From: an uncultured Bacilli bacterium
GTDB lineage: Bacteria; Bacillota_I; Bacilli_A; RF39; UBA660
Reading direction: 5' to 3'
DNA: 41,855 nt
Assembly (NCBI GenBank): GCA_944363735.1
Contig: CALVVB010000005.1
Span: 1-41,855 of the forward strand
Below the pieces are notes generated by a model. The model ran no database searches, was not told the DNA's origin, and worked only from the letters and a program-made list of their open reading frames with translations. Below, in pieces: positions 37,689 to 39,450 of this stretch. A program made the translations under genes and the position numbers. Position 1 is the stretch's first letter; the number at the start of each line of letters is the position of its first letter.

Positions 37689-37948
37689 ATGGATTTAGAA
37701 AGTATTAGAAAAAATATTTATCATAGTTACAATGAAGAATACCTAAAGAAAATATATATAAATACACAAAAGAAAAAGGTCTTCATTTAGTAAATTTAGG
37801 AGATACTAAAAAAATAAAACTTTTAAATGATTGGTTAGATATAGCTACAAAAGTTGGTTTTACTTTAGAAGAAATAGAAACATTATCAACAAGAAAAAGA
37901 TTTTCTAATAAAAATAGTAACAAATTATTAGTTATGCGGAAAAGTTAA
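37689..37948 (+). pseudogene. Frameshifted small gene of unknown function
   Basis: An ATG at 37689 opens a frame reading MDLESIRKNIYHSYNEEYLK that stops at about 37790. A second frame takes over (KGLHLVNLGDTKKIKLLNDW to VMRKS) and ends at 37948. Joining them with one frameshift gives about 85 aa. The second half has a helix-rich, possibly helix-turn-helix, look (DIATKVGFTLEEIETL). I do not recognise the family. No function is suggested. Confidence 0.45.
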
Positions 37949-37982: not shown

Positions 37983-38012
37983 TTGACAATAGTCATAATT
38001 TTTTGATATATT
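37983..38012 (+). promoter_or_regulatory. Promoter of the rightward small RNA
   Basis: TTGACA (37983-37988), an 18-bp spacer and TATATT (38007-38012) with TGA just before it. No coding gene follows on this strand. Confidence 0.8.
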
Positions 38013-38018
38013 ATCGCC

Positions 38019-38117
38019 AGATAACTTGCATGTGAAGGATTAAAGCTTAGTTCTCAAATGAGAGTAGATATACATTTGTATATTTAGAATTCCTTTGCTC
38101 CTGGGGCAAGTTTTTTT
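38019..38117 (+). ncRNA. Structured small RNA with its own promoter and terminator (unassigned)
   Basis: About 99 nt, predicted to start near 38019 and end in TTTTTTT at 38111-38117. The ends AACTTGC (38023-38029) and GCAAGTT (38106-38112) can close a 7-bp stem; inside are AAGGA/TCCTT and two hairpins (TCTCAAATGAGA; ATATACATTTGTATAT). The 3' terminator TTGCTC CTG GGGCAA competes with the long-range stem for GGGCAA, so two folds are possible. It is not recognised as 6S, SRP, tmRNA, RNase P or any riboswitch I know, and no gene follows in the same direction. There is no significant reading frame. Confidence 0.6.
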
Positions 38118-38118
38118 A

Positions 38119-38188
38119 AAATAAAAATGCCTGAGGGGCAACGTACTTAACATACGCTTAGCATTTAGCTACCTACCTCAGGTCTTGT
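38119..38188 (-). ncRNA. Second small RNA, convergent with the first (unassigned)
   Basis: About 70 nt on the minus strand, starting near 38188 and ending in a T-rich tract (complement of 38118-38128). Outer stem CCTGAGG (38182-38176) / CCTCAGG (38136-38130) encloses two hairpins, TAGC-TAAAT-GCTA and CGTA-TGTTAAG-TACG, a three-way-junction layout. A five-codon frame (MLSVC) preceded by GAGGTAGG lies inside; it is probably incidental. The length and stems do not fit a tRNA. The two RNAs end tail-to-tail without overlap of their structured parts. Confidence 0.6.
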
Positions 38189-38194
38189 GAGAAT

Positions 38195-38223
38195 ATATTA
38201 ACATAAAATTTATATATTGTCAA
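38195..38223 (-). promoter_or_regulatory. Promoter of the leftward small RNA
   Basis: TTGACA (38223-38218), a 17-bp spacer and TAATAT (38200-38195). The -35 box includes the TGA stop codon of the upstream DUF3800 gene. Confidence 0.8.
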
Positions 38224-38927
38224 ACATTCTCATTATTAGTATATTCAATTTTTTTATTTCTACCCTTAATTTTATGTCCAGGAAATAAACTTATTCTAAA
38301 ATTCTTTTCCTTTAAATTGGGCAAAACTTTTTTTACTATATTTCTATCCTTATATGAATTATAAAACGTATTAACAATTAAATCAGCAAGTTGTATTCCA
38401 TAATTAGTAGCCGAATCATAATAAGTTACTTTAAAATTAAAGTTTTCTAAACAAAATTCAGTTTTTAAATACATTTCTAAATTATTCAAATCACCTACTC
38501 TTATATTTCTATTATCTACACTTAGTATAAATTCAATATTTTCATTTAATTGATCTAAATTAAGTAATGGTAATATACAATCTATAAATAACAATTTAAC
38601 TGCATAATTAAAAAATATATTAGAAGCTATAATTTCTTTTTTCATAGATGACTTTTCAAATATTTTAGCACATCCATAAAATGTATCAATATCTTGAATA
38701 ATTTTAAAAATTTCTATCTTTTCTAAATCACTCATATCATATGATTTAATTTCTTTTTTTAAATCAATTTTTTTCTTGTCTTTAATAGATTTATTTATCT
38801 TCTTATATTTTGATGTTATTTTATTTTTATCTTTTACAAATGTAAAATAACCACCAACTGCAAAATATTTCGTCTTACTATTTTTATGAATAGAACCACT
38901 TTCATCTAAATATACATATATTCTCAT
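38220..38927 (-). CDS. DUF3800 family protein
   Basis: The ATG at 38927 (MRIYVYLDESG) has AGGAGG 10 bases upstream; the longer frame to 39104 runs across the end of rpsI and is not real. The 235-aa product has the DUF3800 pattern: YVYLDESGSIH (about 4-14), YFAVGGYF (about 21-28), FILSVDNRNI, and SATNYGIQLADLIVNTFYN (about 172-190), the Asp residues resembling RNase H-fold catalytic positions. DUF3800 proteins are found near mobile and defence genes, with no settled role. The stop codon TGA shows that TGA is not read as Trp here. It is likely its own transcript, since the rpsI terminator lies upstream. Confidence 0.85.
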   Translation of the reverse strand: MRIYVYLDESGSIHKNSKTKYFAVGGYFTFVKDKNKITSKYKKINKSIKDKKKIDLKKEIKSYDMSDLEKIEIFKIIQDIDTFYGCAKIFEKSSMKKEIIASNIFFNYAVKLLFIDCILPLLNLDQLNENIEFILSVDNRNIRVGDLNNLEMYLKTEFCLENFNFKVTYYDSATNYGIQLADLIVNTFYNSYKDRNIVKKVLPNLKEKNFRISLFPGHKIKGRNKKIEYTNNENV

Positions 38928-38983
38928 AGGCTCGTTACCTCCTGTAAGAATATAATAACACAAACAAATATCAATATCTATAC

Positions 38984-39015
38984 AAAAAGAAAAAGTACTG
39001 ATTAAACAGTACTTT
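38984..39015 (-). terminator. Terminator of rplM-rpsI
   Basis: AAAGTACTG / CAGTACTTT forms a 9-bp stem with a 6-base loop, followed on the minus strand by TTCTTTTT. It is 13 bases after the rpsI stop. Confidence 0.85.
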
Positions 39016-39027
39016 AGAAACAATAGA

Positions 39028-39450
39028 CTAACGTTTACTAAATTGTGGAGCACGTCTTGCTTTCTTAAGACCTGGTTTCTTACGTTCTTTCTTACGTGCA
39101 TCACGAGTAATAAATCCTTCAGCTTTTAATATTTTACGGAAACTATTCTCAGAATCTGCTGGAGTAGATGCATCATATTGTAATAATGCTCTAGTAATTC
39201 CTAATCTAACTGCACCAGTTTGACCAGAAAAACCTCCTCCTCTTACATCAGCTTCAACATCGAACATTTCACGAGTATTAGTAACATCAAGTGGTTGAGT
39301 TAAATCCATAACTAAAGTTGGATATGGGAAATATTCATTAACATCACGACCATTGATAGTAATTTTACCAGTTCCAGAAGTTAATCTAACTCTTGCAACA
39401 CTAGTTTTTCTTCTACCAGTTCCTGTATATACTTGTTTCTTATCTGCCAT
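39028..39450 (-). CDS. rpsI: Small-subunit ribosomal protein uS9
   Basis: The 140-aa protein of the 30S head contacts tRNA in the P site through its C-terminal tail. The start [20 protein letters not shown], the central [20 protein letters not shown] (89-108) and the tail [17 protein letters not shown] are all standard, including the invariant C-terminal SKR. It is 12 bases downstream of rplM with a GGGAGG site, the usual rplM-rpsI order, and ends at a strong terminator. Its length is slightly above the 130 aa typical because of the N-terminal residues before the conserved YTGTGRRK. Confidence 0.98.

Follow-up and report, generated by a model that had tools for sequence, protein, structure and literature searches.

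Two abutting, unrelated small RNAs in an uncultured Bacilli bacterium: a short relative of DUF3800-I and a DUF3644-associated RNA, putative partners of mobile nucleases

Two small RNAs that face each other and end tail to tail raise the question of what they are, whether they belong together, and what they do for the genes next to them. The window, i.e. the whole 41,855-nucleotide stretch analysed here, comes from contig CALVVB010000005.1 of an uncultured gut Bacilli bacterium (RF39; UBA660), a metagenome-assembled genome. The rightward RNA (RNA-B) lies on the plus strand at 38019-38117, with a U-run reaching to about 38117, and is preceded by a sigma-A type promoter, TTGACA-18-TATATT, at 37983-38012. 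The leftward RNA (RNA-A) lies on the minus strand at 38112-38188, with a conserved core at 38129-38185; it runs from 38188 to about 38117 and is a three-way junction closed by a terminal stem, which a U-run follows. Its promoter, TTGACA-17-TAATAT (38195-38223, minus strand), carries within the TTGACA box the TGA stop codon of a DUF3800 gene (38220-38927, minus strand, 235 aa). The likely start of this gene is 38927, with AGGAGG upstream, and was preferred over a longer reading frame that reaches 39104. The order on the minus strand is rplM, rpsI, a terminator (38992-39015) that separates rpsI from the insertion site of DUF3800 and RNA-A, then DUF3800 and RNA-A. Past RNA-A comes RNA-B, facing on the plus strand behind the remnant of a DNA methylase gene (37689-37948, plus strand), and then a TraX-family gene. 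The full-length methylase has 315 aa, of which the remnant keeps residues 1-25 and 249-314, the middle having been deleted; in sister genomes the methylase gene upstream of RNA-B is intact.

The original prediction, made from the letters alone, was that of two independently promoted structured RNAs, and conserved promoters together with covariation across homologues support it. Both sigma-A promoters were found with the predicted spacings and both terminators at the predicted places, the end of RNA-A being its P1 stem plus the U-run. The overlap of the leftward promoter with the DUF3800 stop, i.e. the TGA within the -35 box, is likewise real and recurs in most relatives. Promoter-like matches are common by chance in AT-rich DNA, and in the window their number is near expectation (23 observed, 18.6 expected), therefore we relied on the homologues. 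A sigma-A site scoring at least 10/12 precedes 45 of the 63 distinct RNA-A upstream regions, as compared to 1.6% of shuffles, and 20 of the 28 RNA-B upstream regions, as compared to 2.3% of shuffles.

The folding energies of the single sequences differ modestly from those of shuffled ones (z = -1.6 for RNA-B and -2.7 for RNA-A), and covariation is the stronger evidence for structure. The comparison with related genomes that the original prediction had proposed revealed covarying stems in both RNAs. Among 17 T-type sequences of RNA-A, 99.1% of the cells of the three-way junction are paired and 10 of 19 pairs show two-sided changes; the covariation score is 0.315, versus 0.177 for shuffled and at most 0.13 for slid versions. 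For RNA-B the stems P1 and P3 are 97.5% paired in 22 diverse sequences, and the score is 0.72 versus 0.21 for shuffled and at most 0.16 for slid alignments. RNAalifold recovered the inner helices of RNA-B, including columns 25-27 with 78-80, and 14 of the 21 predicted pairs have two-sided changes. All copies examined form the P4 hairpin, the sequence of which varies. RNA-B had also been thought to have mutually exclusive 3' folds. The AACTTGC/GCAAGTT pairing stood as a true, covarying terminal stem, but the CCAG half of the alternative CCAG/CTGG helix is not conserved among the homologues; the helix was therefore rejected and the idea of exclusive folds is unsupported. The local hairpin TTGC...GCAA is weakened in three relatives (L087-L089) that keep P1. 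As for coding potential, the sole short ATG frame in RNA-A is broken in a homologous locus (L010).

Both RNAs are real, structured and conserved, but their families are unrelated to each other. Among 60 relatives searched, 38117-38188 and 38019-38117 proved to be conserved in different sets of genomes. A single, linked two-RNA system was rejected since RNA-A and RNA-B occur apart in other genomes; they are unrelated modules that happen to abut. The RNA-A core was found by pattern search in 43 of 385 genomes of the order (0 matches for the reversed pattern), and a scan of the genome collection gave 47 loci, all in metagenome-assembled genomes and nearly all labelled Bacilli or related. RNA-B was found by blastn in 11 of the 385 genomes, two of which have short, marginal matches without the motif. 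Viral contigs scanned with exact patterns yielded neither RNA; these patterns had been fitted to the chromosomes of Bacilli and would not pick up the phage variants that were found later.

The original prediction could name no RNA class for either RNA. This holds for RNA-B, which has no Rfam match in any homologue set at permissive thresholds, but not for RNA-A, which is near the Rfam family DUF3800-I (RF02969). The copy in the window scores 33.2 bits (E 7.7e-4 on 146 bases), below the gathering cut-off of 44.2 bits, and two homologues score above it (45.4 bits in L101 and 44.7 bits in L094). RNA-A shares with this family the adjacent DUF3800 gene, the UUAAGCG-hairpin-CGC core and the three-way junction. 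In the alignment, however, the 5' hairpin of the model falls on the RNA-A promoter and its separate terminator hairpin is deleted, being replaced by the P1 stem and U-run, and RNA-A is therefore a shortened, divergent relative of DUF3800-I, not a strict member. The suggestion that one of the RNAs might be a divergent 6S RNA found no support: Rfam covariance models gave no 6S match in the window or in the homologues.

The association of RNA-A with DUF3800 is near-obligate. A search that started from the protein covered 29 testable loci and found RNA-A directly behind DUF3800, its spacing fixed, in 28 of them, the one exception being L113 (54% identity), and across loci the stop codon of the gene usually lies inside the -35 box of the RNA. 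Two subfamilies can be distinguished: DUF3800a precedes the TTGCC/CTGCC-type RNA-A, its position relative to the RNA core being constant at about -770 to -66, and DUF3800b precedes the GAT type. This match of subtypes is one to one, without exception wherever DUF3800 is adjacent. The reverse does not hold to the same degree, since among the 36 RNA-A loci with enough upstream sequence the DUF3800 gene is intact in 19, broken in five and not adjacent in 12; one of the latter (L129) has a displaced DUF3800 remnant. In several Onthousia genomes (L009-L014; corresponding to 38117-39030 of the window) DUF3800 is cleanly missing, which leaves RNA-A directly under the promoter of the lost gene. One Onthousia lineage without DUF3800 has a compensatory change in the P1 stem of RNA-A, CTTGAGG/CCTCAAG.

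The AlphaFold2 model of DUF3800 (pLDDT 81.9, pTM 0.85) matches RNase HII best (1eke, Z 12.7, 166 residues, 3.1 A); Argonaute PIWI domains match it less well (Z about 8). The alignment shows no variation at D8-E9-S10-G11, D138 or D182. DUF3800 is thus predicted to have an RNase HII-like fold with acidic active-site residues; a fold alone is no proof of activity. We know of no experiment on the role of DUF3800 RNA motifs. An RNase H fold and an association with noncoding RNA have been stated for DUF3800 (PMC10910872, PMC12669027, PMC11701678).

RNA-B had been proposed as a possible part of a system with DUF3800 as well; that proposal fits RNA-A, whereas RNA-B goes with DUF3644. The covariance model of RNA-B matches the window at 38022-38113 (plus strand, 97 bits). 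Starting again from the protein, RNA-B was found at the 3' end of DUF3644 in 12 of 12 testable loci of the order: four are close relatives with a convergent RNA-B, and eight have a divergent DUF3644 (about 35-39% identity) with a clearly homologous, co-directional RNA directly downstream. Two further genomes (G009 and G011) bring this to 14 of 14, the DUF3644 locus of G019 being cut by a contig end. RNA-B is convergent with the DUF3644 3' end, abutting or overlapping it, in four other genera. In the 385-genome sample the association has a Fisher p of about 4e-18, a value based on RNA-B calls of differing sensitivity. A covariance model that is blind to the protein (R1) found five other strong matches in 247 genomes of the class, of which four adjoin DUF3644. 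Moreover, all 40 Bacillota phage or satellite records with DUF3644 (Streptococcus, Staphylococcus, Listeria and Flavonifractor) carry RNA-B at its 3' end, 39 detected by blastn and the Flavonifractor one by the covariance model, and so does the one Corynebacterium phage examined (65 bits). RNA-B is absent beside the divergent DUF3644 of L182, and none was found beside actinobacterial (26-29% identity) or Legionella plasmid DUF3644 genes. On a Dietzia plasmid (L203) the neighbours of DUF3644 are DUF262 and an EcoRI-type methyltransferase, and RNA-B is absent.

DUF3644 is a HEPN family (PMC3710099). In relatives the domain match has an E value of 8e-56, the HEPN RX4H motif is intact (RNTSTH/RNISTH) and a REase-like C-terminal domain follows. 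The protein also matches the PADLOC defence candidate PDC-S19 (E 1.6e-111), which in the PADLOC scan consists of protein models only; the libraries searched gave no RNA partner. PDB sequence searches gave no match for DUF3644 or DUF3800, and the AlphaFold2 model of DUF3644, built from one sequence, has a pLDDT of 37.6 and is not used as evidence. Among the openly licensed papers searched, the 2013 HEPN survey was the only one found to name DUF3644. RNA-B is the founding example here of a DUF3644-associated RNA family. Its members are about 90 nt long, covariation lends the family strong support, and it is unrecorded as far as the libraries and openly licensed papers searched go. In sum, RNA-A is a new, short form close to a known family and RNA-B represents a family with a defined HEPN partner.

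DUF3644 itself was not found in the genome of the window, which is 94% complete; RNA-B is an orphan here, with DUF3644 lost and the methylase remnant left. It departs from its relatives in two alignment columns, 11 and 29, that hardly vary otherwise, which is consistent with an orphan that is beginning to decay, as in G033, where much of RNA-B is gone. The satellite phage Javan251 has a 77.7-bit RNA-B beside an 85-aa remnant of DUF3644. The genome of the window has a second RNA-B, of the co-directional type (L201, G000:C25:11998-12084), that follows a VirD4/TraG-like gene without DUF3644.

We propose that the two RNAs belong to two separate mobile nuclease modules, each made up of one protein and one RNA, and that both RNAs probably act as antitoxins that silence their cognate nucleases. 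The partner of RNA-A would be the adjacent RNase HII-like DUF3800, that of RNA-B the DUF3644 HEPN RNase lost here, and both pairs would constitute type III-like toxin-antitoxin or abortive-infection switches. With a sigma-A promoter of its own, the short structured RNA would be produced in excess, bind the cognate nuclease directly and hold it inactive. If the RNA pool fell, e.g. upon shut-off or degradation of host RNA by a phage, the nuclease, being stable, would be freed and would cut nucleic acid. We infer binding, inhibition, activation and phage defence for both pairs by favouring RNA antitoxins on three grounds: proteins are lost while the RNAs persist, the RNAs have promoters of their own, and AbiF offers a precedent. 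Nucleases that lack the partner RNA are rare, whereas intact RNAs persist beside broken or absent nucleases, and such one-way loss, in which the RNA outlives the nuclease, is what an antidote RNA predicts and so supports silencing.

In C. difficile the HEPN toxin AbiF is neutralised when the structured RNA next to it binds the protein directly (PMC12373285). The abiF RNA (RCd22, RF03085) resembles RNA-B in that an HEPN RNase is accompanied by a neighbouring structured noncoding RNA in Gram-positive prophages. DUF3644 is, however, a different HEPN family with a REase-like C-terminal domain, and the abiF RNA consists of repeated 33-37-nt motifs whereas RNA-B is a multi-stem fold 3' of the gene. 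RF03085 gave no match in the homologues up to E 1 or in the window up to E 10. A neighbouring HEPN gene with an RX4-6H motif, as in AbiF, is present in the relatives, the gene being lost in the window. Type III antitoxins are typically tandem-repeat RNAs located upstream of the toxin and co-transcribed with it. What the proposal shares with these systems (ToxIN, CptIN, TenpIN, AbiQ) is a nuclease held by a folded RNA. Neither RNA-A nor RNA-B is an upstream, co-transcribed repeat RNA; they differ in having no tandem repeats, their own promoters, a 3' position and unrelated nuclease folds. The single copy and the 3' position also count against the antitoxin reading, as do the DUF3800 of L113 and the DUF3644 proteins of L182 and of actinobacterial plasmids, for which no partner RNA was detected.

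The main rival to silencing, though an unlikely one, is that the RNA is a required cofactor or a fixed guide that activates or aims the nuclease, like reRNA/omega RNA or crRNA. The strict pairing of protein and RNA and the one-to-one subtype match would suit this role, and so would the RNase H-type fold of DUF3800, which is also found in RNA-guided enzymes, and its weaker matches to Argonaute PIWI domains. DUF3800 proteins accompany some Cas12a2/V-A2 and VI-F loci (PMC10910872, PMC12669027). Inhibition and activation would give the same signal at the level of sequence, and linkage with one-way loss would also be expected of an obligate cofactor that decays slowly. We nevertheless judge the cofactor or guide role less likely, because neither RNA has a guide-like variable part, termini and loops being constant across genomes, and because intact RNAs persist alone after the protein is lost, which disfavours a pure cofactor. 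In addition, the last stem is followed by a terminator.

It is quite improbable that the RNAs are ordinary trans-acting or housekeeping RNAs, i.e. 6S-like RNAs or riboregulators that merely neighbour nucleases. Independent promoters and terminators, and orphan copies without an adjacent nuclease, are what one would see in that case; yet the distribution of both RNAs over the 385 genomes is patchy, there is carriage by prophages and satellite phages, their linkage to nucleases is near-obligate, and neither matches 6S nor has RNA-B any Rfam class. Still less probable is a cis-antisense control of DUF3644 by RNA-B, for which the convergent, overlapping arrangement in phages and in four Bacilli genera would speak: in eight genomes RNA-B is co-directional and downstream, without overlap, and keeps its structure and core sequence, and its conservation tracks stems and junctions rather than the overlap. 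The least probable reading is that the RNAs serve mainly, as tRNA genes do, as sites of integration or hotspots where defence genes gather. Varied genes abut RNA-B across genomes (DUF3644, methylase, AbiE, CapA/PGA_cap, AAA), insertions or deletions flank RNA-A, and phage RNA-B has DUF3644 on one side and the integrase on the other. Yet both RNAs keep to a single nuclease family each, their spacing is the same from genus to genus and they are missing elsewhere, whereas a hotspot would be a conserved host gene.

RNA-B and DUF3644 could tentatively be regarded as a HEPN immune system under RNA control that has so far gone unrecorded and does not belong to the AbiF/Cas13 lineage. It would be widespread in Streptococcus, Staphylococcus and Listeria, on their satellite phages and prophages, and its structured RNA would be the sensor disturbed by phage infection; DUF3800 and its RNA would be a parallel system with an RNase HII-type nuclease. 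A candidate defence family that PADLOC lists by protein alone appears to be half of an RNA-protein pair on well-studied satellite phages, and a second natural case, beside AbiF, of an HEPN RNase paired with a structured RNA. RNA-A, as a compact DUF3800 RNA, would be useful for probing what DUF3800 RNA motifs do. The pairing is directly testable by comparing the nuclease alone with the nuclease plus RNA, and the repeated loss of the protein with the RNA retained leaves an evolutionary trace for which other genomes can be scored.

Several loci deserve separate mention. In the genome with the 45.4-bit DUF3800-I-type locus there is also a DUF3800-VII RNA nearby (L101:3278-3376, 60.6 bits). In Fusobacterium vincentii (L208), TTGACA-17-TATAAT comes after a DUF3800 gene, and with it a stretch that looks structured, has no Rfam match and contains a UGUAA loop resembling DUF3800-I. 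RNA-B adjoins AbiEi/AbiEii genes in two genomes of another genus (L086, L089); in L198, where no DUF3644 was found, it has an AAA_21 ATPase on one side and an unknown protein of 232 aa on the other. In Staphylococcus prophages (L209:2501-2587; L186 and L190 near 1213) it adjoins a CapA/PGA_cap gene, not DUF3644, and seven S-CoN phages have only this CapA/PGA_cap-type copy. Finally, upstream of DUF3644 in the satellite phage Javan127 (L188:1447-1533) there is a match to the RatA RNA antitoxin at threshold (49.4 bits).
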